Source of the DNA: Flavobacteriales bacterium
Lineage (GTDB): Bacteria > Bacteroidota > Bacteroidia > Flavobacteriales_G > Salibacteraceae
Reading direction: 5' to 3'
Assembly (NCBI GenBank): GCA_013204105.1
Contig: JABMOM010000033.1
Span: 1 to 62,291 of the forward strand
Length of the DNA stretch: 62,291 bases
The notes below the pieces were generated by a model. The model saw nothing but the letters and a program-made list of their open reading frames with translations, ran no database searches and had not been told where the DNA came from. Positions 2,440 to 51,335 of this stretch are shown one piece after another; the stretch's first letter is position 1; every line of letters starts with the position of its first letter. Position numbers and translations under genes: made by a program.

Positions 2440-2501
2440 CATTGCGGCGAAGTTACGCATCATTAGACGAGTCAAATATTATTTTCGTTGTACGGATTGA
2501 G

Positions 2502-3596
2502 ATGGAAGAAAGCTATTACCAGATTGCTTTAAATAAGCTGGAAGGGGTGGGGTCAGCGCGAGCACGTGCCCTGGTTTCCCACTGCGGAGGCGTACGACAA
2601 ATCTTTGATACAAGTAAAAAAGACCTCGCAGCGATACCCGGTCTATCAATGAGGTTGGTCAACCGACTGAATCGGGAAGAAGCCCTACGCCGTGCGGAGG
2701 ACGAAATGAGGGTCATCCAACGCGATGGTATCGACGTATACTTTTACCTGAACGATGATTATCCTTCACGCCTTAAGCATTGTGAGGATGGGCCAGTTCT
2801 GTTGTATGGCGCAGGAAATATGCGCTTGAATCCACCTAGGATTGTGAGTATAGTCGGAACACGGAGCTGCACAGCTTATGGTGAACGGATGACCGAACGT
2901 CTTGTAGATGGACTGGAGGGTTATGGAGCCTTGGTCGTGAGTGGTTTGGCGTATGGCATCGATACGTTAGCACATCGCGCTTCCGTCGCTCGAGGTATGC
3001 AGACGGTGGGAGTCCTTGGGCATTCCCTCGACCGCGTGTATCCAGCACAGAATGAATCCCTCGTTGCGCAGATGAAGCAAAACGGGGGTGTTTTGAGCGA
3101 GTTCGAATTCGGGACTAAACCCGACCGCGAGAACTTCCCTCAGCGCAACCGGATCGTCGCAGGGATGTCAGACGTCACCATCGTCATCGAGACCATGGTG
3201 AAAGGGGGGTCCATGATTACCGCGCGCATGGCGGCTGGTTATAGCAGGGATGTCGCAGCATTCCCTGGGGCTACGGATGCTCCTTATTCAAGTGGGTGCA
3301 ACCACCTGATCAAGACCAACATCGCTGCGCTCGTGGAAGGCATAGATGACCTGGCTTATCTCATGGGGTGGGAAAAGGACAAGAAGCCATCATCCATGCA
3401 AAAGCAGCTCTTTGTAGAACTTACCGATGTTGAGCGTCAAGTGTTCTCCGTGCTCGAACAAAGGCAGCGAGCGTCGATTGATAATTTGAGCTTGGATGCG
3501 GGGCTTCCGATGAGCAAAACCGCGGCAGCACTGCTTGAGTTGGAATTCAAAGGGGTGGTTCGATCGCTTCCGGGCAAAGTGTACGAGGTGGCTTAA
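2502..3596 (+). CDS. dprA: DNA processing protein DprA (natural transformation, RecA loader)
   Basis: A 364-residue DprA/Smf protein that binds incoming single-stranded DNA and loads RecA during transformation. An N-terminal helix-hairpin-helix-like segment (LNKLEGVGSARARALVSHCGG) is followed by the Rossmann-like domain with VSIVGTRSCTAYG and VVSGLAYGIDTLAH, and FPQRNRIVAGMSDVTIV. The last ~65 residues form the winged-helix DprA_WH domain (SIDNLSLDAGLPMSKTAAALLELEFKG). The ATG at 2502 was preferred over an upstream in-frame codon because the family starts close to this point. Presence suggests competence, though DprA is near-universal. Confidence 0.95.
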   Translation: MEESYYQIALNKLEGVGSARARALVSHCGGVRQIFDTSKKDLAAIPGLSMRLVNRLNREEALRRAEDEMRVIQRDGIDVYFYLNDDYPSRLKHCEDGPVLLYGAGNMRLNPPRIVSIVGTRSCTAYGERMTERLVDGLEGYGALVVSGLAYGIDTLAHRASVARGMQTVGVLGHSLDRVYPAQNESLVAQMKQNGGVLSEFEFGTKPDRENFPQRNRIVAGMSDVTIVIETMVKGGSMITARMAAGYSRDVAAFPGATDAPYSSGCNHLIKTNIAALVEGIDDLAYLMGWEKDKKPSSMQKQLFVELTDVERQVFSVLEQRQRASIDNLSLDAGLPMSKTAAALLELEFKGVVRSLPGKVYEVA

Positions 3597-21385: not shown

Positions 21386-23239
21386 TTACTTAGCAATCAC
21401 AAACCTCTTGGTAAGAACTGTGTGGTCAGTTCTGGTCTGTAGAATATAGATGCCGTTTGGCAATGCACTGGTGTTCATTTGCTCACGGACACTTCCGTTG
21501 GCGTTCACAGACATTACTTGTCTTCCTTCTGTATTGAAGACAACGATTGATTGAATCGGCGCATTGCTTTCGATCCAAAGTTGATCCTTCACTGGATTCG
21601 GGAAGATGGAAAGCTTGGTGTTCTCCACATCGTTCAAGCCGATGATGCCGCATGCAGCACATGACTCCCAGCATACAACCGGAAGTACAGTGTCTCCAGA
21701 GAGTTCAGCGTAACGGTTGGTGAACGCACCAGTAGTCTTAGTACAAGTGCTGTTAGAATCGAGTTCTTCTTGACCCGTCCATGTGTCGTGAGAGAATTTG
21801 TATTCGATGGTTTCGGCGGTGAGCGGAAGCGTTACCGTCCAAATGCTGTCTCCTTCAGGATCCGCCATCGCGTTGCAGTTGCCACACCAGCCGTTGAAGT
21901 CGCCATTGACCTCTGGGGTAGTGTAGGTTCCATCGTAGCCACGCATATCTACTTGAAAAGTGACTTGGTTAGTATCCAAGGCCTCTGCGCAAAGATTGCA
22001 AGATGCCCAGCATACGGCAGGCAGTGTTGTGTCTCCGGTAATAACGAGGAAACGATTCGTGAATGCTCCAGTTGTCTTTGTACAAGCACTTCCGGGAGTC
22101 AATTCCTCTTGGCCAGTCCATGTGTCGTGAGAGAATTTGTATTCGATGGAGTCTTGGGTTAAAGGCAATGTAATTTCCCAGATGCCGTCGGCGTTTGCGT
22201 CAGACATGGCGTTACAGTTACCGCACCATCCGTTGAAATCACCATTGAGTTCGGGGGTTGTAAATGTTCCGCCGTACTGGTTCATGTCTACCTGAAACGT
22301 AACATAGTTCGTGTCAGGAGGAGTAGAGCACTCTAGGCAAGACTCCCAGCAAACTGCAGGCAAGGTAGTGTCACCCGTAATGACTAGGAATCGGTTGGTA
22401 AACCCACTTGTCGTTTTAGTACAGGCGCTTCCCGCGGTGAGGGCCTCTTGTCCCGTCCAGTTGTCATGGGCGAATTTGAATTCGATCGAATCTTGGGTCA
22501 AAGGAAGCGTGATATCCCAGATACCATCAGCGTTCGCATCTGTCATTGCGTTGCAGTTGCCACACCATCCGTTGAAATCACCATTTACTTCTGGGGTAGT
22601 GAAAGAACCTCCGTATTGGTTCATGTCCACTTGAAAGGTCACATAATTTGTGTCGGGGGCTGGCGTAGTTGCGCCTGCATCGAAGTACACGCTATCGCAG
22701 TAGTATGTTTTTGCGCCAGCCGTGTTTCCTTCTACTCCGAAGTTGTAGAAGACAGAAAGCACGTTGAAATTGAAGCTATAGTTGATAGCCGCTGTGCCAG
22801 AAGACTCATTTGAAAAATCAAACGTGAGCCACTCCCATCCGTTAGCAACAGTTGTGAACTCATCTGTTTCAACGCTTTGCGTAGGCGTGCCTGCCACCTC
22901 AGCCTTAAGCTTGACCACGATTCCAGAATCGGGAGAATACACCTTGACCATGATTACAGTACTTCCCGTGTCGAATGGGATGAGAGAAGCAAGGCCAGCA
23001 GTGGTGCTGAGGGTTACTCCAGCCCATGCCGCTGATCCCAGGGGTTTGTCGACCTGAAGAACATTGTTGGTTGAGCTGGTAGGATCTACCGCTAAGGCGG
23101 AGGAATTTCCTCCGAAGGGTACCGTCGTGTAATTGACGTTGGCTGTATCGTCCCACGTGATCGGTAGGTCGATTTGTGATTGTGCATTGACGGCAAAAGC
23201 TGCAATCAAGGCTACAAGAGTTAAGTAAAGATTTTTCAT
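21386..23239 (-). CDS. T9SS-exported glycan-binding protein with three tandem modules
   Basis: A 617-residue secreted protein with signal peptide (MKNLYLTLVALIAAFAVNA). Residues ~20-190 are a jelly-roll-like domain (WAGVTLSTTAG...WEWLTFDFS) related in style to the C-terminus of the PKD lipoprotein at 24.6 kb. Residues ~196-534 are three ~113-residue repeats of the form TFQVDMxxYxG...VNGDFNGWCGNCNAM...W...LPL...EYKFSHDxWTGQE, close to CBM20/CBM48-like early-set glycan-binding folds but with extra paired cysteines. The last ~80 residues are a T9SS type A sorting domain (FPNPVKDQLWIES). No catalytic domain is seen. Position behind the GH16 gene suggests a surface glucan-binding partner. Confidence 0.82.
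   Translation of the reverse strand: MKNLYLTLVALIAAFAVNAQSQIDLPITWDDTANVNYTTVPFGGNSSALAVDPTSSTNNVLQVDKPLGSAAWAGVTLSTTAGLASLIPFDTGSTVIMVKVYSPDSGIVVKLKAEVAGTPTQSVETDEFTTVANGWEWLTFDFSNESSGTAAINYSFNFNVLSVFYNFGVEGNTAGAKTYYCDSVYFDAGATTPAPDTNYVTFQVDMNQYGGSFTTPEVNGDFNGWCGNCNAMTDANADGIWDITLPLTQDSIEFKFAHDNWTGQEALTAGSACTKTTSGFTNRFLVITGDTTLPAVCWESCLECSTPPDTNYVTFQVDMNQYGGTFTTPELNGDFNGWCGNCNAMSDANADGIWEITLPLTQDSIEYKFSHDTWTGQEELTPGSACTKTTGAFTNRFLVITGDTTLPAVCWASCNLCAEALDTNQVTFQVDMRGYDGTYTTPEVNGDFNGWCGNCNAMADPEGDSIWTVTLPLTAETIEYKFSHDTWTGQEELDSNSTCTKTTGAFTNRYAELSGDTVLPVVCWESCAACGIIGLNDVENTKLSIFPNPVKDQLWIESNAPIQSIVVFNTEGRQVMSVNANGSVREQMNTSALPNGIYILQTRTDHTVLTKRFVIAK
21638..22654 (-). repeat. Three tandem ~339-bp coding repeats
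   Basis: Modules at about 22316-22654, 21977-22315 and 21638-21976. The first two are most alike; the third has diverged. Each keeps WCGNC, a C-TKT cysteine and a terminal CWxSC pair. They encode the glycan-binding-like units of the T9SS protein. Confidence 0.9.
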
Positions 23240-36646: not shown

Positions 36647-36733
36647 GAGCAAATGATCTAAGCCTGAATCCCATTTAGAATACGGCCTACACTAAACCAT
36701 GGAAATCCACGTCTTTTGTCCAAACACCTCACC

Positions 36734-36985
36734 ATGCGCTTTTTACCCCTCCTCGTAATCACGGTTTTCCTCTCTATCTCTTGCAACAAAGACGATTGCA
36801 CCCGACCAGACCAATGTTCGGAAATTCCAGAAGCGGGTCCTTGTGAGGCGTACATTCCAGCCTATTATTATGACAAAGAGGACGGAAAATGCAAGGAGTT
36901 CATCTACGGCGGTTGCGGTGGCAATGTGCCGTATGAAACCCTTGAGGCTTGTTGGGAATGTGAGTGTGATAAGAGGTTGGAGTGA
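36734..36985 (+). CDS. Kunitz/BPTI-domain lipoprotein
   Basis: An 83-residue protein with lipobox (VFLSISC, lipid Cys17) and one Kunitz domain from ~22. The cysteine spacing C-x8-C-x15-C-x7-C matches BPTI exactly (Cys28, 37, 53, 61) with the conserved YGGCGGN, but the gap to the fifth cysteine is one residue shorter (x11) and the end reads CWECEC. The P1 position, following the second domain cysteine, is Glu (GPCEAY), not the basic residue of trypsin inhibitors. It may be a surface protease inhibitor. The ATG at 36734 starts the signal peptide. It stands alone, 87 bases after GH3. Confidence 0.82.
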   Translation: MRFLPLLVITVFLSISCNKDDCTRPDQCSEIPEAGPCEAYIPAYYYDKEDGKCKEFIYGGCGGNVPYETLEACWECECDKRLE

Positions 36986-37559: not shown

Positions 37560-37659
37560 GGCATCTGGGTTTAATAGGGATGAAACTTCGGACGAAGACA
37601 GAGCTAATTTCGGATTTTTCGCTTAAACCTTATTCTACCTTCGCGGTTCGATTGATCTC

Positions 37660-40600
37660 GTGGGAATAGATGATCTGAAGAAACAGTTTGAAAAGAGTCC
37701 GCAAATTGCCCAATTTGACCTCGGACCCGGGCTAGCTACGTCCGTTCGTCACCGATTGAAGGGCGTTGCCGGCTCTGCCCTCAGCTTTATCGCCGCCGCG
37801 GCGTTTAAGAAACACCACGTCCATCACCTCTTGGTGCTCAACGACCGGGAAGAGGCTGCCTACTTTTACAACGACCTCCAAAACCTCATTTCACCCAATC
37901 GGGTCTTCTTCTTTCCGCACAGCGAAAAGTTGCCCTACGAGCACCACGACCCGGACGACGAACACTTTACCGGTAAGAAAAGTGAAGGAGAGAGCGGCCT
38001 AATGCGCGCCGAAGTGCTGAGTGCCGTCAATACGCGCAAGCGGCATTTTGTGATCGTGAGCTATGCCGAAGCCTTGTCTGAAAAGGTGGTCACCAAACAA
38101 AGCCTGGTCAAGAACACACTCACCATTCAAGTGGGCGATGGTCTGTCTCAAGAATTCATCAATGAAATGATGGAGGAGCTGGAGTTTGAGCGCACTGATT
38201 ATGTCTACGAACCCGGCCAGTTCGCCATCCGTGGTGGTATCGTTGACATTTGGAGCTTCTCCAACGAGCGCCCGTTCCGCGTAGAGTTGTTTGGAGAAGA
38301 AGTAGACAGCTTGAGGACCTTCGACCCGGTGACCCAATTGAGCGTCAAGGACCACGGCCACCTCAGCATCATTCCTGATGTACAGAAGCAAGCCATGAAG
38401 GAAGTCCGACAGTCTTTCCTAGAATACTTGCCGGACGATACCGCCATCTGGTTGAAGAATTTCGAACTCATCCAAGAGCACGTTGAGAAGGCTTTCGACA
38501 GGGCACAAGTGAAGTTTGATGGCTTGAAGAGTTCGGTGAAGCAATTGCCACCCGACGAGATTTACCTGAGTGAGGAGCGCTACCTCGACGAGCTGTCCAA
38601 GTTTAGCGTGGTGGAGTTTGATCGGCCGAGCATCATCAAGGCCGATGTGGAGATTCGATTCAACCAGACACCGCAAGCGTCGTTCAACAAGAACTTCGAC
38701 TTGCTCATCAGCGACCTCACCAACCATACCCGCAACGGGTTCTACAACTACATCTTCGCTTCCAACCCCAAGCAAATCGCGCGGCTGCATCAGATCTTTG
38801 AAGACATCCTCACCAACCGCGAAACGGAGGAGAAGCCCTTTGACTTTGAAGGAATCAATACGGCAGTACACGAAGGCTTCATCGACCATGAATTGAAGCT
38901 CGTTTGCTATACGGATCACCAGCTTTTTGAGCGCTACCATCGCTATCGCCTCAAAGAAGGTTTCGCAGATGCCGAACGGCAGATTACGCTGAAAGAACTT
39001 ACCGACCTGCAGCCGGGAGACTACGTGGTGCACATTGATCATGGCGTTGGCCAGTATTCGGGCATCCAGAAGATTGAGGTCAATGGAAAGATGCAAGAAG
39101 CCATTCGCTTGATCTACTCTGGTGGCGATGTGCTCTACGTCAGCATCCATTCGCTGCACCGGATTTCGAAGTTTGTCGGAAAGGACGGCACGGCTCCTAA
39201 GATCAATAAGCTGGGGTCCAATGCATGGCAGAACCTGAAGAACAAGACCAAGAAAAAGGTCAAGGAGATCGCCTACGATTTGATCAAGTTGTATGCAGAA
39301 CGAAAGATGAAAGAAGGCTTTGCCTATCATCCGGACACCTACCTCCAAACCGAACTCGAGAGCTCTTTCATTTACGAAGACACCCCGGATCAAGAAAAAT
39401 CCACGGCAGCGATCAAAGCCGACATGGAGAAACCCTATCCAATGGATCGCTTGGTTTGCGGCGATGTGGGCTTTGGTAAAACAGAAGTGGCGATTCGCGC
39501 GGCGTTCAAGGCGGCTACGGATGGGAAGCAAGTGGCAGTGCTAGCGCCAACGACCATCCTGACCATGCAGCATGCCAAAACCTTCAAAGAGCGGCTCAAA
39601 GAATTTCCCGTTACGGTCGATTACATCAATCGTTTCCGGTCCGCAAAGCAGCAAAAGGATACGCTCCAGCGTCTGGCCGATGGTAAGATCGACATCCTTA
39701 TCGGCACACATCGATTGGTTAGCAAGGACGTCAAGTTCAAGGACCTTGGCTTGATGATCATTGATGAGGAGCAGAAATTTGGAGTGAGCGTAAAAGACAA
39801 GCTGAAGATGATGAAGGTAAACGTGGATACCCTCACCCTTACGGCAACTCCTATTCCACGGACCTTGCAATTCTCCTTGATGGGTGCGCGCGACTTGAGC
39901 ATCATCAATACTCCACCGCCAAACCGCTATCCAGTCCAGACCGAACTGCACACCTTCAACGAAGCCGTCATCAAGGATTCGATCTACGCAGAGCTAACCC
40001 GCAACGGCCAAGTGTTCTTCATTCACAACCGCATTCAAAACATCGGTGAGGTCTGCGCCATGATCAAGAAGATAGTCCCGGAAGCTAGCATCGAATTTGC
40101 CCATGGGCAATTGGAGGGGCATCAGCTGGAGGAAATCATGCTGCGCTTCATCGAAGGCGATTTTGACGTGTTGGTTTCAACTTCCATCATCGAAAGTGGC
40201 CTGGACATTCCAAATGCCAACACCATCATCATCAACCAAGCCCAAAACTTCGGATTGAGCGACCTGCACCAAATGCGAGGAAGGGTGGGAAGGAGCAACC
40301 GAAAGGCCTTTTGCTATTTGCTTTGCCCGCCCATGAGTTCGCTCACCAACGAAGCCAGAAAGCGCCTCACGGCCATCGAACAATTCAGCGAATTGGGAAG
40401 TGGATTCAGCATTGCCATGCGCGATCTGGACATTCGCGGGGCAGGTAATTTATTGGGAGGCGAGCAAAGCGGCTTCATCACCGACATCGGTTATGAGACA
40501 TACCAGAAGATCCTAGAAGAGGCGATGGAAGAATTGAAAGAGACCGAATTCAAGGGGCTGTTTGAAGAAGACAAGGACCGAGAATACGTCAAGGACTGCC

Positions 40601-41046
40601 AATTAGAAACGGACCTAGAAGTCCTGATTCCGGACGACTACATCAACAACATAACTGAGCGCATGAGCGTCTACCGCAAAATGGCCGAGGTAGACGATGA
40701 AGCCGGATTGGATCTGTTTACGAAGGGTTTAGAAGACCGATTTGGACCGATCACCCCGTCTGTGGAGCGACTGCTCAAATCCAAGCGCTTGATTTGGGCC
40801 GGCAAGGACATCGGCTTTGAAAAGGTGGTGTTCAAGAACAAGAAATTAATTTGCTACTTCTTACCCGATAAGGACTCCAAGTACTTCCAATCTCCCAAGT
40901 TTGAGAAGGTCTTGATGTTCGTCCAAAGCAATCCAAACCGAGTGCAACTCCGCGAAAAGAACGATCGTCTGAGTCTGGTTTTTACCAACATCAGCACATT
41001 GGAGAAGGCGATTGATACCTTGGAGGAGGTGTTGAAGTTGGGGTGA
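37660..41046 (+). CDS. mfd: Transcription-repair coupling factor
   Basis: A 1128-residue DNA translocase that removes stalled RNA polymerase and recruits UvrA. Order: UvrB-homology domains (~1-350), RNA polymerase interaction domain (GDYVVHIDHGVGQYSGIQ, ~452-470), RecG-like motor with Walker A GDVGFGKTEVAI (~600) and DEEQ (~703), helicase motifs to ~950, and the TRCF C-terminal domain. The start is GTG at 37660. The last 102 bases of the gene occur again, displaced, at 44211-44312. Confidence 0.96.
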   Translation: MGIDDLKKQFEKSPQIAQFDLGPGLATSVRHRLKGVAGSALSFIAAAAFKKHHVHHLLVLNDREEAAYFYNDLQNLISPNRVFFFPHSEKLPYEHHDPDDEHFTGKKSEGESGLMRAEVLSAVNTRKRHFVIVSYAEALSEKVVTKQSLVKNTLTIQVGDGLSQEFINEMMEELEFERTDYVYEPGQFAIRGGIVDIWSFSNERPFRVELFGEEVDSLRTFDPVTQLSVKDHGHLSIIPDVQKQAMKEVRQSFLEYLPDDTAIWLKNFELIQEHVEKAFDRAQVKFDGLKSSVKQLPPDEIYLSEERYLDELSKFSVVEFDRPSIIKADVEIRFNQTPQASFNKNFDLLISDLTNHTRNGFYNYIFASNPKQIARLHQIFEDILTNRETEEKPFDFEGINTAVHEGFIDHELKLVCYTDHQLFERYHRYRLKEGFADAERQITLKELTDLQPGDYVVHIDHGVGQYSGIQKIEVNGKMQEAIRLIYSGGDVLYVSIHSLHRISKFVGKDGTAPKINKLGSNAWQNLKNKTKKKVKEIAYDLIKLYAERKMKEGFAYHPDTYLQTELESSFIYEDTPDQEKSTAAIKADMEKPYPMDRLVCGDVGFGKTEVAIRAAFKAATDGKQVAVLAPTTILTMQHAKTFKERLKEFPVTVDYINRFRSAKQQKDTLQRLADGKIDILIGTHRLVSKDVKFKDLGLMIIDEEQKFGVSVKDKLKMMKVNVDTLTLTATPIPRTLQFSLMGARDLSIINTPPPNRYPVQTELHTFNEAVIKDSIYAELTRNGQVFFIHNRIQNIGEVCAMIKKIVPEASIEFAHGQLEGHQLEEIMLRFIEGDFDVLVSTSIIESGLDIPNANTIIINQAQNFGLSDLHQMRGRVGRSNRKAFCYLLCPPMSSLTNEARKRLTAIEQFSELGSGFSIAMRDLDIRGAGNLLGGEQSGFITDIGYETYQKILEEAMEELKETEFKGLFEEDKDREYVKDCQLETDLEVLIPDDYINNITERMSVYRKMAEVDDEAGLDLFTKGLEDRFGPITPSVERLLKSKRLIWAGKDIGFEKVVFKNKKLICYFLPDKDSKYFQSPKFEKVLMFVQSNPNRVQLREKNDRLSLVFTNISTLEKAIDTLEEVLKLG

Positions 41047-41083
41047 TTTAACGCTGCGCGTCAATTACTCTTTTTCTTCTTCT

Positions 41084-41464
41084 AACACTGTTCTTTTGGC
41101 TTGACCCAAAAGAACCAAAAGGTCAAGGCTTTGGAGACGGTTTCACTCCGCTTCCTTGTCTAGCCTAACCTCGGCCGAGTGATCTCCTTCGCATCCGCTT
41201 CGGAGCTTCTCGGTCTCGCTAAGGCTAGCCTGCGGTTCTCGCGAAACCGTCTCCAAGGCCGGTCAAGTTTTAAAGTTTAGAGCGGCCTTGGAAGCGTTGA
41301 GTGTTCTGATCGAAGTGAAGTCCTAGTAAGACCGGGCAGCTCCCGAGTGGGCGAGGGAGATCACCCGGCCGCACTTGGGCTTTAGGAAGAGTAGGTTGCT
41401 CAACGCTTCCGAAGCCTTGATTTTTTGCTTCTTTTTCATCAAGAAAAAAGAAGAAGAACCTTCA
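41084..41464. repeat. Large nested inverted-repeat region after mfd
   Basis: The 418-base gap holds no gene but strong structure. Element A: arms GGCTTTGGAGACGGTTTC (41127-41144) and GAAACCGTCTCCAAGGCC (41243-41260), one mismatch, with inner arms CTAGCCT/AGGCTAG. Element B: GGAAGCGTTGAG (41290-41301) and CTCAACGCTTCC (41399-41410), inner ACCGGG...CCCGG and CTCCC...GGGAG. A short stem CTTTTGG...CAAAAG precedes them and a CTTCTTTTT/AAAAAAGAAG stem follows. Confidence 0.75.
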
Positions 41465-44080
41465 TTACCTCATCAAACTAAAACTTCCCCGATATTCCTC
41501 CGCAACGCCGTCCTCATCGGTAAAGGACAGTACAAAAAAGTAAGTCCCCGCAGCGGATGGCTCGCCATTGACAAAGCCATCCCAAGCATGCGCTGCATGG
41601 CTTCCCTGATGCACGAGTTGCCCCCAACGGTTGTAGATGAATAAGGAGAGATCTGAGGTTTTGCAAAGCATATTGATGCGCAACACATCGTTGATGCCAT
41701 CTCCGTTTGGCGTGATCACGTTTGAAATTCCGGGCTTGCAACGCTCGGGACAGTAGCCTTTTCTAAAAAGTCGGATGCTGTCAGATGTCTTGCAAGCCTT
41801 TAGCGTGGCTTGAAGGATGAATAGACCCGAAGTGTCTAACTGCGCGCTTCCTTGCGCTATCCAGTGGTCTCCGGAGAACTCAACGCTCAAAGTGGAGTCG
41901 GTGGACGTTGTATTCCACAACCAAGTCTGGTTCTGCGAGGCAGTCTTGTCCAAATTGCGCAAGATCACTTCGGCTCCCGGACAGAGGAAGGTGTCGTTAC
42001 CAAGATCAACTTTTGGTTCACCGTTGAAGGTGACGTTGAACGCATCAAAGAGCGTGTCGCATTGGTTGAAGCTGAGTAGCCAATAGTTGCCGCTGGAATC
42101 AACCCGCAAGTCGGGGCCGGAGCTACTGTCGCTCCAGAGGTAGCTGATGCCATCGCTAAATGGGTTGAGCAAATAAAAAGGACGATCCAAGCAATAGATG
42201 CTGTCGTTGGGCAAGACTCCATCTGGTTGCGATAGAAAGGTGATGGATACCGAGTCGCTGTCAGAACCACAGGCGTTGGTGGCGGTGAGCTTGATTGTGG
42301 TGGTGTTCTGTTGCTCACTGGTGCTCGATATTCCTATAATCTTCACGCTGTCACCATTGCTCCATTGATAGCGTGTCCAAATGTTCTCATTGAAAATAGC
42401 AGGCACAAGGATCAAGCTGTCTGAACAGAGGTTGGTGTCATTTCCCAAGTCAACTTGAAGTGCCGCGGTGGCGGTTATTCTCACTGTGTCCGAATCAGCG
42501 CCACACCGGTTGGACACCACCAAGGTGAATGCTTGCGGCACATTCAGAGAGAGTTCTTCAGGCAAGACCCAAAGAATGGAATCCATGCTGCCCGTGTTCC
42601 AGAGGTAGTCCCCCGCAACTCCATTGGCTGAAAGTTTGACTGAATCCTCAGAATCGAGACAAAACTCTAGATCTAGCCCTAAATCAATTGCCGGTGGTTG
42701 TTCAATGCGGATGGTCTTGACTACGGTGTCGGTAACGGCCCCATTCTGTGCGATCAGCGTGATGGTGAATAGCCCTGTGTCTGTGAAAATGTGATAAGGC
42801 GATAAGTTGGTTGAAGTATCGTTGACACCGCTGGTTGGATCGCCAAAGTTCCAAAGTACCGAATCAATAAAATGATAATTCACCTTGAATTGCGAAGTGT
42901 CTCCTAGGCACCGTGAGCTGACCATGAAGTTTGTGGCGAAGAAATTACTTGGAAAATTCGGCACCACCTCACCTGCGTTTCTGCCATCTAAGTATACGGC
43001 ACTATCTTGATATCCGCATGCGAATCCTGAAGCATTAGGGTCGTTAATGACCGCCATGTACCCAATTGAGAATGCAGCGGCGCCAAAATTATTTCCGTAG
43101 ATTTTCCCATCCAATCCGTATTGCATTCCTTCCATGGTGGTAATAAGACCATTAGAAGATAAATAGATCGGAACCATGGAGGCTTGAATGGCAGCAGCGG
43201 TAGGTAAAGTAACATCAAATTGCAGAGGGCCTCCAGTATACAGCTTGGTGTCATCTGCTGAGAACTCTGCGCCATACGCGACACCTATGTCATTCATCAA
43301 TCGCAAGTTGGAGAGTTGACCCGTTGCGTTGTCAAAATCAAATATGGCTATGTCATCGCTGAAAGTATTTACGAACAAATGCCCCCGATGACTAAACCTA
43401 AGCTGGCCTTCGCAGCGGCCATATGACCCCATGTTCGGGCCCATGGAGGAAGTAACCGGAGATGTAGATACACCGCTCTCTGTGACCAAGAAGGCGTGAT
43501 ATTTGTTGCTTCCGCATTGCTGTACGATCACCCAATAGTCAATTCCGTTCCCATGGAGAGTCGCAGCTATTTTTTCAGATGTACTATCAATAAGCACTAT
43601 GTTCTTCATTCCAGAAACAACATCACCCACCCCTGATTGGAGTGACATATCAATAAGGTGATAAAACAAGCCTATATCAGAGGTGTTCCATATCTCAGCG
43701 TTATCAGTCGTGAAGACGAAGTAATGATCATTAGAATTTGGCCGCGGAACGGCTACTGTACTCTGTTCAGAACCGGCATCAGTGAATAATCCGGTGCCGT
43801 TTGGCATAAACGTATGATTGGCATTCCATATCGTATCATCTGAAAAATAGAACAATAGATCGCCAACGCTATCTGACATAGATGCAGCACCTCGATCGCT
43901 CGAACCTTGAGATTGTGTATTTGCTTGAGGACTCCCTTGAGTGAATTCAATCCCGGCTTTGAATCCAAAATAGCACCAGGACGTTTCTAGTTGAGCAACA
44001 CAAAGATTTGGAGAAAGGAAAACTAGTAATAAAAATAATGATCGGCGGGCTGGCCTCCTATTGTATGATAAAATACCCAT
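41465..44080 (-). CDS. T9SS type B exported surface protein (gliding-associated C-terminus)
   Basis: An ~871-residue secreted protein. A signal peptide (RRSLFLLLVFLSPNLCVAQ) is followed by a beta-propeller-like N-terminal half found in many Bacteroidetes giants, then PKD-like regions (CLGDTSQFKVNYHFIDSVLWNFGDPTSG) and repeated units of the form DLGNDTxLCxxS. The C-terminal ~90 residues (NVITPNGDGINDVLRI...LFIYNRWGQLVHQG...GTYFFVLSFTDEDG) are the CHU_C / T9SS type B sorting domain. Likely an adhesin or gliding-related surface protein. An ATG 21 bases upstream (44101) is an alternative start. Confidence 0.85.
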   Translation of the reverse strand: MGILSYNRRPARRSLFLLLVFLSPNLCVAQLETSWCYFGFKAGIEFTQGSPQANTQSQGSSDRGAASMSDSVGDLLFYFSDDTIWNANHTFMPNGTGLFTDAGSEQSTVAVPRPNSNDHYFVFTTDNAEIWNTSDIGLFYHLIDMSLQSGVGDVVSGMKNIVLIDSTSEKIAATLHGNGIDYWVIVQQCGSNKYHAFLVTESGVSTSPVTSSMGPNMGSYGRCEGQLRFSHRGHLFVNTFSDDIAIFDFDNATGQLSNLRLMNDIGVAYGAEFSADDTKLYTGGPLQFDVTLPTAAAIQASMVPIYLSSNGLITTMEGMQYGLDGKIYGNNFGAAAFSIGYMAVINDPNASGFACGYQDSAVYLDGRNAGEVVPNFPSNFFATNFMVSSRCLGDTSQFKVNYHFIDSVLWNFGDPTSGVNDTSTNLSPYHIFTDTGLFTITLIAQNGAVTDTVVKTIRIEQPPAIDLGLDLEFCLDSEDSVKLSANGVAGDYLWNTGSMDSILWVLPEELSLNVPQAFTLVVSNRCGADSDTVRITATAALQVDLGNDTNLCSDSLILVPAIFNENIWTRYQWSNGDSVKIIGISSTSEQQNTTTIKLTATNACGSDSDSVSITFLSQPDGVLPNDSIYCLDRPFYLLNPFSDGISYLWSDSSSGPDLRVDSSGNYWLLSFNQCDTLFDAFNVTFNGEPKVDLGNDTFLCPGAEVILRNLDKTASQNQTWLWNTTSTDSTLSVEFSGDHWIAQGSAQLDTSGLFILQATLKACKTSDSIRLFRKGYCPERCKPGISNVITPNGDGINDVLRINMLCKTSDLSLFIYNRWGQLVHQGSHAAHAWDGFVNGEPSAAGTYFFVLSFTDEDGVAEEYRGSFSLMR

Positions 44081-44138
44081 TAAGCGATTTACTATGATCA
44101 TTCAGCGTATAAAGATAAGCCCCTATGGATTTTAGATA

Positions 44139-44312
44139 ATGTCTGAATTTCGAGCCAAAGACTTGAAACTTGAAAATATTTTACAGCATTTCTGTCGACA
44201 ACGAGCTGAACAACTCCGCGAAAAGAACGATCGTCTGAGTCTGGTTTTTGCCAACATCAGCACCCTAGAGAAGGCGATTGATACCTTGGAGGAGGTGTTG
44301 AAGTTGAATTGA
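44139..44312 (+). pseudogene. Displaced mfd 3' end, forming a 57-codon chimeric ORF
   Basis: Bases 44211-44312 repeat the last 102 bases of mfd (40945-41046) with seven differences, keeping the reading frame and stop: QLREKNDRLSLVFANISTL... ending KLN instead of KLG. Upstream the frame stays open to an ATG at 44139, giving a 57-residue chimera whose first 24 residues are unrelated to Mfd. No ribosome-binding site is evident. Treated as a gene remnant. Confidence 0.8.
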
Positions 44313-44793
44313 GGGCAGTTCAGTGGTTTCTCCGCGATCTCAGCGAACTTTGCGTCAACCTTGAAGTGTGCGAGGTTCACGCAGAGAGCGCAGAGGGAAA
44401 ACGCAAAGAACGCGGAGAGTTTTGGGTATGATCAAATGACGTCATAGCTATCGGCTAGCATAGGTTTTTCGCGACCTCAGCGAACAAGCGAAGCGCCTCC
44501 GCGCACTTTGCGTGAACCCTGATGTGCTTGAGGGTCACGCAGAGTGCGCAAAGTGAAAGCGCAAAGTGCGCAAAGGGGATACTTGATATTGAAGCGCTAA
44601 TACAACACCCAAAGAATAACCCCATACCGCATCGCCTTGCTAACATTCATCGGGTGTTGGATGAGTTTGAGACACAGAATTTGCCAGATCAAAACTTTTT
44701 CATAGTTTTTAGGGTCTCGGATTTGTTATTTGGTAATCACCACCTCTGGTCTCTAATGTGTTCGGGATACGTATAGCTCAAACACATATCGCT
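44313..44793. repeat. Gene-free stretch with two hairpin repeats
   Basis: First unit 44329-44418: TCTCCGCG pairs with CGCGGAGA, with further inner complementarity. Second unit 44501-44549: GCGCACTTTGCGTGAACCCT opposite AGGGTCACGCAGAGTGCGC, loop GATGTGCTTG. Both contain variants of CACGCAGAG / CTTTGCGT, the type of repeat seen scattered in Bacteroidetes genomes. 44581-44793 shows nothing else beyond space for a promoter of the next gene. Confidence 0.7.
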
Positions 44794-46293
44794 ATGAGGA
44801 CTTTTCTTGCTCTTACAATTTTTCTTTTCTCGGTCTCTCAATCAATCGCTCAATCATACGCCCCTCCCGTTGCTTGGAAGAGTGTAACCTGGCAAGTAAA
44901 TAGACCTGATGGAACACTTGAACTCGAACAGGACGATAGTGGCGAAGATTGGTGGTACTCGATCACAAAAATGTACGACGAGGCTGATCATCACATTGGT
45001 TACATTGCTGTAGGATACTCAAATTTCGATGATATTCTGTACTCAGAGTCTGGTGATTGTTTTCAAGGCTCTTGGGATACAAATTGCGCTGACTTTCATG
45101 GTCCAAATGACGAACAGGGCACCTCATATCAAAGTATAGGATTATTCAGTCTTGCCGGTAAGATGATCGCTTGTCGATCTGTTTATCCTGGGGTATTCTT
45201 CGATGTATTTCAAACGAAAGACCGAAAGTCAATTATTGCTGTAGGTAATGCCAATGCTAACAAGGATCGACTTTCAACAGAATGGGGTGGGCCTGCAAAT
45301 GGATTCTTAGCAATCAATCCGGAAGTAGACGGAAGTGGCGATACCATTTGGAACACATTCTCGCTGTGCAATTCGCTCTCAACTACACCCAAGTCAGGAC
45401 AAAGACCGAGTATTGTCAAGATGGATATGAGCCTTGACGTTAGCTGGTCGTATTTGTATACTCCTCTTAACATTGAGGAAAATGAGGATAGCGCGTCCAG
45501 TCAAGATTACATTGATGAAATCGAGCCGATATATGAATTCATGTACGGAGAATTCTACGGAGCCACCGAGTTGTCAGATAGTTCTATTGCTGTGGTCGGT
45601 AGATCCAATCACATTGAGGACAATACTTTAGTTACAGAGCACGATGATATGTTTGTTGTGAACCTTGACAGCAATGGCATGCTGAACTGGAAAGACGCAC
45701 CCTTGGATACAGACTCCAAGACCTCCAAAGCACTATGCGTCGTTGAAAAGCCGGGGTCAGGGGTGTTCTATGTGGGTGGAACAGTCCATAATGGCTACAA
45801 CACCCCAGACACAGCTAAAATGAAATTGCTGAGCTACACGATTTCAACAGAGAGCCTCACATTGAATAAGACCTATTCGAATTCCGACGAGTCATACTTG
45901 GATGATTCAAAATACAGCGGTATCTACTCTGTAGATGTAGATAACGCAGGTGCGATTATTGTCGGGGGATTGGTAAATGGGTATGATCCTCTTCAATCCC
46001 ATCAATCACCTTGTTATGGTTTAATTTTAACGGTTAACCCAAGTACTGGTGCAATTATCAATGATGCTATTGATATCGGCCAAGTTCGCACCTATGATCT
46101 GAAACTCGACGCTCACGTTCTTGAAAACGGTGACTTAGCAGTGATCAGTTCGAAGTTAGACCCTACGAAGATTGACTCTGGTACTCCTTGGAGATATTCG
46201 TCTTTCACCTCTGCTCATCCTTCTATTAGTATACCCCACTATGGATCCCCTTGTGACTCTAGCGATTATTTTTTTCAAGAATTACAATGCTGA
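44794..46293 (+). CDS. N-terminal part of a large T9SS protein, truncated by frameshift
   Basis: A 499-residue product with signal peptide (MRTFLALTIFLFSVSQSIAQ) and a beta-propeller-like region with repeated phrases such as MLNWKDAPLDTD and GAIIVGGLVNGYDP, similar in style to the gene at 49266. It lacks any T9SS sorting domain and ends eight residues after a run of seven T (46269-46275). Removing one T joins CDSSDYFF to KNYNADAYISRFEKNGSGEW in the next frame without a gap, giving a single protein of about 1489 residues ending at 49264. Either a real frameshift, a sequence error, or slippage. Confidence 0.75.
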   Translation: MRTFLALTIFLFSVSQSIAQSYAPPVAWKSVTWQVNRPDGTLELEQDDSGEDWWYSITKMYDEADHHIGYIAVGYSNFDDILYSESGDCFQGSWDTNCADFHGPNDEQGTSYQSIGLFSLAGKMIACRSVYPGVFFDVFQTKDRKSIIAVGNANANKDRLSTEWGGPANGFLAINPEVDGSGDTIWNTFSLCNSLSTTPKSGQRPSIVKMDMSLDVSWSYLYTPLNIEENEDSASSQDYIDEIEPIYEFMYGEFYGATELSDSSIAVVGRSNHIEDNTLVTEHDDMFVVNLDSNGMLNWKDAPLDTDSKTSKALCVVEKPGSGVFYVGGTVHNGYNTPDTAKMKLLSYTISTESLTLNKTYSNSDESYLDDSKYSGIYSVDVDNAGAIIVGGLVNGYDPLQSHQSPCYGLILTVNPSTGAIINDAIDIGQVRTYDLKLDAHVLENGDLAVISSKLDPTKIDSGTPWRYSSFTSAHPSISIPHYGSPCDSSDYFFQELQC

Positions 46294-49264
46294 TGCTTAC
46301 ATAAGTAGATTCGAAAAGAATGGTTCGGGAGAATGGATAAAGCTGTGGGATCGATTGGTAGATACCGATGGAGAAAGAGGCAACTTTCCCGGACAGATTA
46401 AGAAACAAGAGTGTGTCTATAAAATGGTTGAATCAGACCAAGGTGAACTTATTGTAGCTGGAAACTCCAGTCACAATCACGATGACAATTATATCATTGG
46501 AATGTACGAACCATGCGAAATTGAAGACACCGCGTTTCATTACCCGACCTACTACTCCAGCTATTGGACGCACAACTTGACGACTGAAACATACTCCTTA
46601 AATACAAGCACGACGTTCACCAATGAAACGTTCCATTTTAAGGGGGCTATTTTTATTGAAACGGGAAAGAAACTCACGTTGAATAACTGCACGATCTACT
46701 TTGCCGATTCAAAGAGAATGGGAGAAGAGACAAAATTGTACGTGCTCGGTGGCGGTGAACTCGAGATCAAAGGAGGCACGCTCTTGTCAGCAAATGATGA
46801 TTGCGACAATAGCATGTGGGATGGTATCACGGTAATCGGAAATCCCAACTCCACCGATGCGAGTCATCAAGGAAAAGTCAGGATCACGGATTCAAAAATC
46901 GAACATGCCCGATGGGCGGTAACGCTAGGAAACCCAACCAATACTGCTCTCGCAGGCTGGCAAGGTGGCGGAATCATTGAATCCCAGGGTGCTACGTTCG
47001 AGAACAACCACAGAGACATCATCATGTATCCACATCCAGCCTCGAAACCGGGCGCTTCCAGTTTGTCTTACATAAGAGATAGTCACTTTAAAACCACCTC
47101 AACCATGCGTGACCCACGCTATACGCTGCCGAGATCGACTGACCGCGGGGGTGCTCATATTCACGTCACCTTATGGGATGTGCACGGAGTAGAACTATCA
47201 GGCGACACATTCGTTGGGTCAACCGCCATTGAAGAAACGGCTTGGTCAACGGGGATCTACAGCATCGATGCCACCTACAAGGTAGGGTGCCGATTTCAGA
47301 ATTCGTCCGGCTGTACCAGCGACGCCAACAGCTTTTCCAACCTGCAATACGGCATCAATGCCGTCAATTACTCAGACCTCTCAGCCCCTGAAATTGTGGC
47401 GAACAACTTTGAGAACATCTCCCGTACAGGCATCTACCTCAAATCCGTCAACCATGCCACCATTGTTGACAACACCTTCGAACAAAACTGGGGCTATGCA
47501 GCCGAGTGGAACGGTAATTTTTATGCTGACTATGCATGCGCTCAATGCAGCGATACCGCAAGGGCGATCTACCTCTATGATTGCAATGGCTATACTGTAG
47601 AAGACAACGAGATGGTAGGCGGAGAGCCGGGGCTTGGCGTTCGACAAGGGATTGGGATTGAGATTTACAATACGAACCCCAATACTTCGAATGAAGATGA
47701 GATTTACAGGAATAGCTTTACAAAACTCGCCTTCGCATCCTTTGGTAATAAGGAGAATAGAGGTAATGGAATTAAGGATAGAGGTCTTGATATCCGATGT
47801 GGAGAATACACCTCAAATGCGTTCGATATTCTTACGACCATTGCTCCCGGTATAAGCTCAGAGCAAGGCTCGCCTCTAAGCAATCAGGCCCTCGCAGGAA
47901 ATACATTTGACGGTTGCCTGACAGCCGAAGGGGAATTGCTCAACGATGGTTGGGCGTACACTTATCATTGTCATGATACTTCAGGATCGAGTGCCAGCAC
48001 CATCCCAAGCCCATCGTGCTATACACCGGATAGTGTAATGGTATTGGTAAGTACAGAATTTCTGTACGGCGATTCATCTTGTAAGGCGAATGCACACTAC
48101 GAAGGAAGGGCCTCGGTGGTGAAGTCTCAGTACGTATCTGCACATTCAGATTATCAGGCTGAATTGACCAACTACGATGGATTGATCGATAATGGGAATA
48201 CGAATCAACTGCTAAGCAGCATATCAAACGACGATGCAGACAACGTGGTGAAGTCATTGTACGATGCGGCCTCGCCCTACGTTAGTGACGAAGGCTTACT
48301 TGCTTTGATTGATGATAAGCCCTCACCAATGAATGAAACGGACCTGGTCTCGATCCTTGAAGACAACAGCCCACTAACCGAGGTCGTGTACAATGCCGCT
48401 GACAAGCGCACGCCGGCAATCTCCTCCGGGGGCATGGCTACGATCGACAATGCACAACACGGCGTTTCAGCGCGGTCGTATTTGGAAGATACAGTGGCGT
48501 GGGCGCGAAGGGATTATTCCCTTGCCAAAGACCGGTATATATCTTCATTGATTCAGACCTTCGATGATGATAACAGATTGGACACATTGATCGATGTGCT
48601 TGACGATGACTCAGATACCGTACGTCAACTTCAGCTTGCCCAGGCGCAGATCATGGCCGGTTACACATCAGCAGCAGGAGGAATTCTGAGTGCAATTGAA
48701 TCAAGCAGCAACTGGGGCGATTATGCTGAGCTTCTCCAGGAAGTAAAAAACTGGGCCATCGATAGTGTTGGCGTGGATTCAATCCTTCATGACTCTACTT
48801 TGCTCAGTACAATTGAGGGATGGGCTACAGACGAAAGTTCAAGCGCATACACAAGAAGCCGTGACATTCTTGAGTTCCTCTATGAGGTGAACCACGATAC
48901 CAGGCAAGGAGGAGATCATTTGGTCCCGGAGATCACCGTATTCCCCGAATGGGATCAAACTGCGGATAAGCGCGATGTTAGCGAAGACATAGAGCCGGAG
49001 GAGCAAGTTACTCAAGATGATTATGCACTGAAAGCCTATCCCAACCCCTTTAATTCTAACATCCGCTTTGAAGTTCCTCCCGTGGTAGGTCAATTGCTAA
49101 TCTATTCTATGTCCGGGACGTTGATTGACCAAATACACTGCAGTGACCCTGACAATCCGTTGATAGAGTACGGCGGAACTCAGATGGATCAGGGAGTCTA
49201 TTTTGTCACCTTTCGCTCGAAGCAATTGAACTACCAATTAAATGCAAGGATTGTCAAATTGTAG
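46172..49264 (+). CDS. C-terminal part of the same large T9SS protein (beta-helix plus sorting domain)
   Basis: The open frame runs from 46172 but the part before ~46270 overlaps the preceding gene in another frame and is probably not original coding. From ~46276 it carries the end of the propeller-like region, then a right-handed parallel beta-helix (~residues 130-500: repeated short strands such as NNCTIYFADSK, IEHARWAVTLGNPT, NFENISRTGIYLKSVNHATIVDNTFEQN), a helical section, and a type A T9SS sorting domain (LKAYPNPFNSNIRFEV ... QLNARIVKL). It has no signal peptide of its own, supporting a split gene. The beta-helix suggests polysaccharide contact. Confidence 0.78.
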   Translation: MTLVLLGDIRLSPLLILLLVYPTMDPLVTLAIIFFKNYNADAYISRFEKNGSGEWIKLWDRLVDTDGERGNFPGQIKKQECVYKMVESDQGELIVAGNSSHNHDDNYIIGMYEPCEIEDTAFHYPTYYSSYWTHNLTTETYSLNTSTTFTNETFHFKGAIFIETGKKLTLNNCTIYFADSKRMGEETKLYVLGGGELEIKGGTLLSANDDCDNSMWDGITVIGNPNSTDASHQGKVRITDSKIEHARWAVTLGNPTNTALAGWQGGGIIESQGATFENNHRDIIMYPHPASKPGASSLSYIRDSHFKTTSTMRDPRYTLPRSTDRGGAHIHVTLWDVHGVELSGDTFVGSTAIEETAWSTGIYSIDATYKVGCRFQNSSGCTSDANSFSNLQYGINAVNYSDLSAPEIVANNFENISRTGIYLKSVNHATIVDNTFEQNWGYAAEWNGNFYADYACAQCSDTARAIYLYDCNGYTVEDNEMVGGEPGLGVRQGIGIEIYNTNPNTSNEDEIYRNSFTKLAFASFGNKENRGNGIKDRGLDIRCGEYTSNAFDILTTIAPGISSEQGSPLSNQALAGNTFDGCLTAEGELLNDGWAYTYHCHDTSGSSASTIPSPSCYTPDSVMVLVSTEFLYGDSSCKANAHYEGRASVVKSQYVSAHSDYQAELTNYDGLIDNGNTNQLLSSISNDDADNVVKSLYDAASPYVSDEGLLALIDDKPSPMNETDLVSILEDNSPLTEVVYNAADKRTPAISSGGMATIDNAQHGVSARSYLEDTVAWARRDYSLAKDRYISSLIQTFDDDNRLDTLIDVLDDDSDTVRQLQLAQAQIMAGYTSAAGGILSAIESSSNWGDYAELLQEVKNWAIDSVGVDSILHDSTLLSTIEGWATDESSSAYTRSRDILEFLYEVNHDTRQGGDHLVPEITVFPEWDQTADKRDVSEDIEPEEQVTQDDYALKAYPNPFNSNIRFEVPPVVGQLLIYSMSGTLIDQIHCSDPDNPLIEYGGTQMDQGVYFVTFRSKQLNYQLNARIVKL
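49028..49264 (+). repeat. Sorting-domain repeat, copy 1
   Basis: 237 bases coding the T9SS domain; copy 2 is 50556-50792 with equal length and 62 of 78 identical residues. The last ~50 bases are almost identical in DNA. Confidence 0.85.
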
Positions 49265-49265
49265 C

Positions 49266-50792
49266 ATGCGTCGTCCTTTAGGATGTTTGTTTATAGCCCT
49301 TAGCTTGTTGGCATCTACAACGGTTTTGGCACAAGCTCCTTATTTACAAAAGCGCCTCAACGGCCCGGGGAATGGCTTGGAGTACATCTACGCTTTGGAT
49401 GAGATTGGTTCTAACCTGTTGATTACATCTGGTACACGCCGATTGTCGGGTGGTCCGTATGCGATGTGTAGCGTCATGCTATCACCGAATGGAGACTTGA
49501 TATCAAAAGACGAGCTGCACTCTGATTCAGTAGGAATTGTCAACGGTTACCGCGGCTCTTCAATCGTGGTTGATGACTCGATATACCTTGTAGGCGGTCT
49601 TAAGTGGAGTCAAGACAGTTTTCTACCAGCTATCACGCCTGTTGGACTAAACGGAGAGATAAGCACACCGAGATTGATTGGAGACTTCCAACAAGCTGGG
49701 TTCTACGATGCGGTGCTCGCTGATGATGGAAGTTTGATGCTTTTTGGAAGCGTAACTAACGACACGGGATATGTGGATTTTCTCTTGGTCAAGGCGGATG
49801 TTTCAGGGAATATTCAATGGGTGAAGTCATACGGAACCGACACATGGGATCAGGGATTGTCCATTTGCAAAGGTCCTGACGGAGGGTTTTTCCTTGGGGG
49901 GGAGTCCCGTGCTTTTGGAAGTGGATCAACCTATGACATCTTCATCATTCGTGTAGATTCCAACGGCAAGGAAATCTGGCGAGGAGACTGGGGTGGCGAC
50001 GATAGCGATTGGTTCGGTAATCTAGAATACAACCCTGAAGCAGGATTACTATTTACAGGCTATATGACTTACGAACAAGGTGTAAATCAGGGTTCAGGTG
50101 CCTATGTTATGCTTCTGAACGAATATGGAGATATAATATGGGATCAGCACCTTTCTGAGCCGTATGGCGACACTGCATACTACAGCTCCTTTAGGGTTGG
50201 TCGTTTCCTCGAAAATGGGCGGATCATCGTTGCAGGAAAAGGTGAGGTATTCAATATTTTTTCATCTCATGACAAACCAGTAGCAATGATCCTCGACATC
50301 GAAGGAAATATTCTCATGCATCGAATATACACTTCCGTTGTTAAGAAAAAGAGCTTAGCATGGTTTGAAGATATCAAGGAGCTCAGCGACGGCAGGATCA
50401 TTGCTGGAGGAGTATATGTCCCGGACACCTCCAACGCCCAGGACACCGGCAATCAAGACATCCTGATCGTAGAATTGGATCAAAACGGCTGTGAGTATCC
50501 GGGCTGCCAGCCGCCGATTGGGGTGGAGGAGGTGTACTTCTCAGCACAAGAGACACTGAAAGCCTACCCCAACCCGTTTAACTCAAGCATCCGTTTCGAA
50601 ATACCACCTGTGGTAGGTCAACTGAGTATTTATTCCATGTCCGGGACACTCATTGACAAATTACACTGCAGTGACCCTGATAATCCGTTTGTTGAGTATA
50701 ATGCCCCAGAATTGGGTCGGGGAATATATTTCGTGACTTTTTCATCGAAGCAATTGAACTACCAATTAAATGCGAGGATTGTCAAACTTTAG
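49266..50792 (+). CDS. T9SS-exported protein with propeller-like repeats
   Basis: A 508-residue secreted protein: signal peptide (MRRPLGCLFIALSLLASTTVLAQ), then a series of ~50-residue units of the form GGFFLGGESRAFG...DIFIIRVDSNGKEIWRGDWGG, typical of beta-propeller or SBBP-like repeats, then a type A sorting domain nearly the same as in the preceding gene. It starts one base after that gene's stop, so both are cotranscribed, and looks like a smaller paralogue of its N-terminal half. Function unknown; likely cell-surface. Confidence 0.82.
   Translation: MRRPLGCLFIALSLLASTTVLAQAPYLQKRLNGPGNGLEYIYALDEIGSNLLITSGTRRLSGGPYAMCSVMLSPNGDLISKDELHSDSVGIVNGYRGSSIVVDDSIYLVGGLKWSQDSFLPAITPVGLNGEISTPRLIGDFQQAGFYDAVLADDGSLMLFGSVTNDTGYVDFLLVKADVSGNIQWVKSYGTDTWDQGLSICKGPDGGFFLGGESRAFGSGSTYDIFIIRVDSNGKEIWRGDWGGDDSDWFGNLEYNPEAGLLFTGYMTYEQGVNQGSGAYVMLLNEYGDIIWDQHLSEPYGDTAYYSSFRVGRFLENGRIIVAGKGEVFNIFSSHDKPVAMILDIEGNILMHRIYTSVVKKKSLAWFEDIKELSDGRIIAGGVYVPDTSNAQDTGNQDILIVELDQNGCEYPGCQPPIGVEEVYFSAQETLKAYPNPFNSSIRFEIPPVVGQLSIYSMSGTLIDKLHCSDPDNPFVEYNAPELGRGIYFVTFSSKQLNYQLNARIVKL
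50556..50792 (+). repeat. Sorting-domain repeat, copy 2
   Basis: Partner of 49028-49264, coding LKAYPNPFNSSIRFEI through QLNARIVKL. Confidence 0.85.
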
Positions 50793-50906
50793 TACGTGTT
50801 TCGCAAAGGGCTGCCTTGGGCACGCTCCTTATGAAATAACCATTTCGGATTCCTGGCGTCTGGCTCCTAACTCCTCTGACCCACATTTCCTCCTGGAAGT
50901 CGACAG

Positions 50907-51335
50907 CTAAACCAACATCCAAACAATCACCGCATACCGCGCCGCTTTCCCAAGCGTCATCCAAAAAGCGGTACGCCAGACGTTTACTTTGAAGATGCCA
51001 AGCGCTACTGCGATGACATCCCCTACGAACGGGGCCCAAGCCATCAAGGCGGTGTAGGCGCCAAAGCGATCGAGTTGATGCTTCCAGCCAAGAACCTTTT
51101 CTTCTTTCACTCGTAAGTACCGACCGATGCTTTGCCAATTGCCCAGGTAACCGAGGCCATAGCTAGACATGCCCCCGAGGGTGTTGCCGATCGTTGCTAC
51201 GAAGAAGGAGGTGATGGGATCGAAGCCCCCGAGTACCATCGCCGCCAAGATGGCTTCGGAACTAAACGGAATAACCGTGGCCGCCAAGAAGGTGGCGATA
51301 AACAATCCGAGGTATCCGAGTTCAATCCATTCCAA
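50907..51335 (-). CDS. YqaA/DedA-like inner-membrane protein
   Basis: A 142-residue protein of the VTT/SNARE-associated family, short YqaA form, with four hydrophobic segments. Features are FIATFLAATVIPFSSEAILAAMV, GNTLGGMSSYGLGY and APFVGDVIAVALGIFKVN, the conserved re-entrant motifs. Members of the wider DedA group are linked to lipid scrambling and envelope homeostasis; the exact role here is unknown. It is divergent from zwf, with 151 bases between the starts. Confidence 0.88.
   Translation of the reverse strand: MEWIELGYLGLFIATFLAATVIPFSSEAILAAMVLGGFDPITSFFVATIGNTLGGMSSYGLGYLGNWQSIGRYLRVKEEKVLGWKHQLDRFGAYTALMAWAPFVGDVIAVALGIFKVNVWRTAFWMTLGKAARYAVIVWMLV

Follow-up and report, generated by a model that had tools for sequence, protein, structure and literature searches.

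Integrative elements can rebuild the 3' end of the gene into which they insert, as e14 does in icd. The locus described here, in which the end of the DNA-repair gene mfd occurs a second time behind the gene, is like elements of the e14 type in that a direct repeat runs up to the gene stop, the gene is restored and the differences are silent; it is unlike them in that no integrase was found, no bounded element is recognized and the inserted DNA runs on past the repeat. Single crossovers in E. coli, involving circles with part of the homology missing, left the homologous end duplicated over 109–950 bp in 14 sequenced clones that arose from conjugated non-replicative plasmids, as described in the portion of the study considered here (PMC3240628). 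The single-crossover or homology-facilitated illegitimate recombination (HFIR) treated in that portion shares with the present locus one homologous side together with one end-joined junction, and a direct repeat made of part of the target gene end (~100 bp in our case); it differs in being experimental, with a cloned lacZ end, whereas the event considered here is inferred from natural sequence (PMC3240628). For the T6SS clusters of Vibrio cholerae, the relevant part of a published analysis proposes that an incoming module anchored by homology pushed older gene ends downstream (PMC5361080). The displaced gene 3' end would be common to both situations; the Vibrio clusters, as that part presents them, are effector/immunity arrays, whereas here the end of one housekeeping gene is concerned, once, in the company of T9SS-type genes (PMC5361080). 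Based on the comparisons reported below, the mfd-end repeat is most likely an ordinary, well-preserved scar of recombination and not a new kind of mobile element.

The repeated mfd end and the block behind it

The window, meaning the whole stretch of DNA analysed (62,291 nucleotides from a Flavobacteriales bacterium of the Salibacteraceae), is an entire contig (C31) of a 3.1 Mb genome assembled in 46 contigs. The features of the locus are as follows.

37660–41046, plus strand: mfd, an intact open reading frame of 1128 aa with a functional gene end; 98% aa identity to the mfd of the closest relative, G009
40945–41046, plus strand: copy 1, the functional mfd 3' end, ending KLG with a TGA stop
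41047–41464, no strand: non-coding, nested imperfect inverted repeats (41091–41452); in the same place in G009, with 7/418 differences
41465–44101, minus strand: T9SS type-B gene (CHU_C domain), 878 aa
41465–41554, minus strand: stretch of the type-B gene that, by sequence comparison, is retained downstream of mfd in G009, as a remnant
44102–44210, no strand: sequence upstream of the type-B gene (36% G+C), up to the junction 44210/44211, which is presumed to be illegitimate
44211–44312, plus strand: copy 2, the orphan mfd 3' end, ending KLN with a stop; dependable homology 44211–44306
44313–44757, no strand: intergenic, containing two 70-bp repeats (44339–44408 and 44497–44566, 81%)
44758–49264, plus strand: large type-A-like gene in two overlapping frames (44758–46293 and 46172–49264), with a beta-helix match
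49242–50792, plus strand: type-A-like gene, 516 aa, with a sorting-tail match just under the curated cut-off
50907–51335, minus strand: yqaA-like gene with a VTT domain, here called yqaA, convergent with mfd and ancestrally adjacent to it; the right edge of the block lies at ~50905

The two mfd ends lie in the same orientation with their starts 3266 bases apart and agree at 95 of 102 bases, the second copy keeping its reading frame through to a TGA at the equivalent stop position; the original prediction had described the repeat in just these terms, with seven changes and frame and stop intact. Three of the seven changes fall in the last codon (GGG versus AAT). Since all three bases of this codon differ, the dependable homology is taken as the 96 nt to 44306, in agreement with the repeat finder (40945–41040 and 44211–44306; 92/96 identical, four changes). 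Judged from the alignment, 44306 may be the last homologous position, in which case the matching stop of copy 2 could be luck. The 96-nt pair is the sole long direct repeat across 37–48 kb, the other listed family being of 22 nt, and a match of this kind to the mfd end is expected by chance in the window at ~1e-40. A DNA search of the genome itself located the mfd end at these two places only. At 44211 the homology begins abruptly, inside the gene, and the preceding sequence is not alignable to mfd. The copies differ internally, and their flanks are unlike each other on either side. Tandem duplication was considered and rejected: self-comparison of the window revealed no neighbouring gene or other sequence duplicated alongside the mfd end. 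A tandem duplication that took in surrounding genes is what the original prediction had regarded as speaking against its interpretation. Also set aside was a small gene built on copy 2, a 57-aa ORF from 44139, which returned sub-threshold Pfam matches only and looks like chance.

The type-B gene between the copies, anticipated in the original prediction, is confirmed by its CHU_C domain. The nested inverted repeats are present as well, in imperfect form: a strict inverted-repeat search returned none, and under looser settings outer arms at 41091–41135 and 41408–41452, 80% complementary, were found around inner pairs. Rfam gave no match over 40900–51000, and a literature search on palindromic repeats in Flavobacteria yielded no paper matching the full query. 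Partial relatives of the 41091–41452 palindromes are scattered in this genome and in related ones, including one in G011 that lies ~0.4 kb downstream from a type-B gene. The near-identity of the region to its counterpart in G009 might suggest recent exchange; it was given less weight because another palindromic region is partly as conserved. Of three further palindromic regions in syntenic positions, one shows good conservation in its first ~200 bp, and the other two stand at ~80–83%.

The 3.3-kb segment between the copies, originally proposed as the unit, proved too small. DNA absent from G009 continues 6.6 kb beyond copy 2, as far as 50905, and the block that separates mfd from yqaA here (41047–50905, 9.9 kb) comprises the palindromes, the type-B gene, copy 2 and the type-A-like genes. 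The large type-A-like gene, whose sorting-tail match is under the curated cut-off, may be either a pseudogene or the product of an indel error; protein searches of 12 genus mates with its pieces (E 1e-20, and in a second search E 0.001) gave no match. The 516-aa gene has two adjacent paralogs elsewhere in the genome (60% and 50% aa identity, at 9116–12238 of contig C27) and weaker matches (best 32%, in G003) in nine of the 12 genus mates, with none in G002, G005 and G009. At the DNA level, 44700–50930 had no match in nine other genomes; in its own, it matched partially at two places on contig C27. The neighbouring type-A-like genes resemble each other at their 3' ends (49026–49264 versus 50554–50792; 79.7% DNA identity), and sequences like part of 44339–44566 occur at three other places in this genome and one in G009. 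Elsewhere in the window, internal repeats of ~71% DNA identity (21667–22657) occur in a protein that matches CBM48 and bears a T9SS sorting tail, and a small protein at 36716–36985 has a Kunitz/BPTI inhibitor domain, which to our knowledge is unusual in bacteria.

The original prediction had seen no integrase between the copies, and none was found among the ORFs searched in the larger block. Pfam detected neither integrase nor transposase in the 57-aa ORF or in the 20 block ORFs with a length of 70 aa or more, the latter taken from a list over 41047–50905 that stops at 50000, and PHROGs, applied to five block ORFs, produced no integrase and one beta-propeller match.

The mfd/yqaA junction in related genomes

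The locus was compared with those of 11 relatives, 10 from other members of the genus and one from G015 of the same family; among the 13 genus genomes searched, G008 (without an mfd match) and G002 (contig ending inside mfd) were left out. A second mfd end was present in none of the 11 loci within the 3.4 kb (G006) to 13 kb of DNA downstream of mfd. The original prediction would have counted against its view the same arrangement fixed across distant relatives, and no such pattern was seen in these loci. In four of them (G005, G011, G003, G007) mfd and the convergent yqaA abut at ~5 bp, from which the block is understood as an addition. The gap is within 45 bp in G015 and 115 bp in G010, and it is occupied by a 275-aa ORF in G001. 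Another convergent gene stands behind mfd in G004 and in G006, where the contig stops short of yqaA; the tails of these genes have the look of a sorting tail as judged by eye only, and Pfam assigned the genes no family. G012 retains behind mfd a tail remnant with 48% identity to the G004 tail.

In G009, DNA matching 37637–41554 of the window lies directly adjacent to DNA matching it from 50906 onwards, so that mfd is followed there by the palindromic region, the final 90 bp of the type-B gene, a filler of a few bases and yqaA. Only the first 0.5 kb of the 9.9-kb block is thus held by this genome, and the type-B arrangement is thereby known without the type-A block. The varied DNA in the gap (G001, G004, G006, G012 and G009) indicates that it took in DNA more than once.

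Signs of exchange in the type-B gene and in mfd

The type-B gene matches, over 41478–42867, a gene on another G009 contig (C2) with 94.5% DNA identity, compared with 84–88% for orthologs of the tandem-array type-B genes in the same two genomes. In this C-terminal half, 21 of 203 4-fold sites differ, as against 137 of 421 in mfd (Fisher P ~4e-10). Past the matching stretch the proteins are just 31–40% identical, and the N-terminal half belongs to another lineage, nearer to genes of G003 and G011. Two paralogs in G003 are likewise 92–99% identical over their last ~720 bases with diverged N-terminal parts (40–60% aa). The combination of C-terminal identity with diverged N-terminal parts implies that C-terminal parts of type-B genes are exchanged between lineages and paralogs, and the sequence comparison leads us to conclude that the C-terminal half of the present gene moved between lineages after the split from G009. 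Surface proteins of Porphyromonas gingivalis, T9SS-exported ones included, undergo domain rearrangement and allelic exchange according to the pertinent part of a published study (PMC5266723). Relatives of the type-B gene were found in all 25 genomes searched. At loci L066, L067 and L069, along with 41465–42867 of the window, the C-terminal parts are nearly common and the N-terminal parts are not, a pattern of modular exchange. The G009 type-B gene is adjoined by an ORF (L066, 7681–8502) with integrase-core (rve) and HTH_21 domains, which presumably resembles an IS3-type transposase.

The two mfd ends were compared with G009 outside the last codon. Each copy has six differences to G009 in 96, and the changes unique to one sequence number two in copy 2, two in copy 1 and four in G009; at two sites copy 2, unlike copy 1, agrees with G009. 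Both unique changes in copy 2 are silent, and 21.5% of random changes there would be. From the 4-fold divergence of mfd between the two genomes, a copy 2 free of selection since the split would have been expected to accumulate ~15.6 changes, and two are seen (P(≤2) ~2e-5); with the last codon counted there are five (P(≤5) ~0.001). Given that difference between expected and seen, copy 2 probably belonged to a functioning mfd until a short time ago, or else it was copied recently, the dating being soft on account of the small numbers. The silent changes of copy 2 (last codon aside), together with the 4-fold contrast between the type-B gene and mfd, lend support to the suggestion of an exchange with a diverged strain that the original prediction had offered as its second possibility.

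Divergence along mfd is lowest at its end. The last 332 bp differ from G009 at 11 positions, against 283 of 3055 in the rest (Fisher P ~8e-5, for a boundary chosen afterwards), and this is the lowest divergence among 3056 windows of 332 bp; the 4-fold value of nearby pgl is also low, at 17/95. The low divergence may fit a homologous joint within mfd, counts being small enough for local chance to be possible, and would place the crossover in a broad range, ~40519–40714.

Origin of the repeat

Based on this evidence, we favour, by a slight balance of belief over doubt, the interpretation that DNA passed between strains at the mfd/yqaA junction and left the mfd-end repeat as its scar. Two versions of the locus would have been involved: the first, of which a trace is still visible in G009, with the palindromes and the T9SS type-B gene behind mfd, and the second with mfd, the type-A-like genes and yqaA. 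A piece of one would have been joined to the other at two points, homologously inside mfd and illegitimately at 44210/44211, which corresponds to a position 102 bp short of the mfd stop. In the most economical order of events that we infer, a fragment with the mfd end, the palindromes and the type-B gene would have been circularised by end joining, and the circle would then have been taken in where the mfd ends match, through one crossover of the RecA type. This would yield a whole but hybrid mfd, followed in direct repeat by an mfd end that is truncated. A circle is preferred because HFIR proper is expected, in the part of the E. coli work considered, to delete rather than to duplicate (PMC3240628). 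Counting against exchange, neither copy is especially close to G009, and the block is partly family-typical, considering the C27 paralogs, the matches in nine of 12 genus mates and the type-B relatives in 25 of 25 genomes. No genome with mfd followed directly by the type-A block was found among those compared, and no donor was identified. Uptake of DNA would be permitted, as distinct from shown, by the presence of a ComEC-family gene and of DprA (2442–3596); the ComEC-family gene does not establish competence, because the family occurs also in E. coli among the controls.

Several other origins were weighed against the exchange. Direct repeats around an insert, with the mfd end at two places in the genome only and no recombinase, could be accounted for if a linear piece with the palindromes and the type-B gene had been inserted at a staggered break, fill-in producing a target duplication of ~100 bp that later diverged in place. 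We consider this unlikely, given that the two unique changes of copy 2 are both silent, that copy 1 also has two unique changes, which would be rare for a recent in-place copy under selection, and that the last codon is different at all three bases. The original prediction had placed first an element that integrates into the gene end and rebuilds it, and the geometry part of that idea stands: the direct repeat extends from an internal crossover point to the gene end, the gene is restored and the differences are silent. The element itself found no such support, and an integrase-driven remnant, in which the mfd 3' end served as attachment site, the element supplied a gene end of its own and the integrase was later lost, appears quite improbable to us. 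The block ORFs covered by the Pfam and PHROGs searches revealed no recombinase, G009-absent DNA extends well past copy 2, and the duplicated end was absent from the 11 loci of relatives; neither a second genome with the same bounded unit nor a precise empty site was found. A scan of viral contigs for the mfd-end pattern gave nothing, and a literature search on mfd as an attachment site nothing of evident relevance.

An artefact, by which two strain versions were fused into one contig of a mixed-strain assembly, is in our estimation very unlikely, even with several circumstances in its favour: nine of the 11 records in which mfd was found are metagenome assemblies of Flavobacteriales or Salibacteraceae (two are more distant), as is the other near record, the window makes up in full one of the 46 contigs of the genome, and an indel error could explain the split of the type-A-like gene. 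Given the internal and flanking differences of the copies, the 44210/44211 junction would not result from a misjoin at the repeat, and the estimated contamination is 0.18%. The most far-reaching idea considered would have the mfd/yqaA gap as an integrase-free landing place at which surface-protein genes are swapped as a reversible, recombination-driven cassette, a circularised fragment entering at a gene end through RecA crossover and being able to loop out via the 96-bp repeat as a 3266-bp circle; this we regard as a long shot, to be given the least credence among the ideas discussed.

Lastly, the locus has importance as a readable natural case of surface-protein genes entering a Flavobacteriales chromosome between convergent core genes, with no mobile-element enzyme visible. 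The mfd/yqaA gap is indicated as a site of repeated DNA intake, and the type-B T9SS genes are seen swapping their C-terminal parts across lineages.
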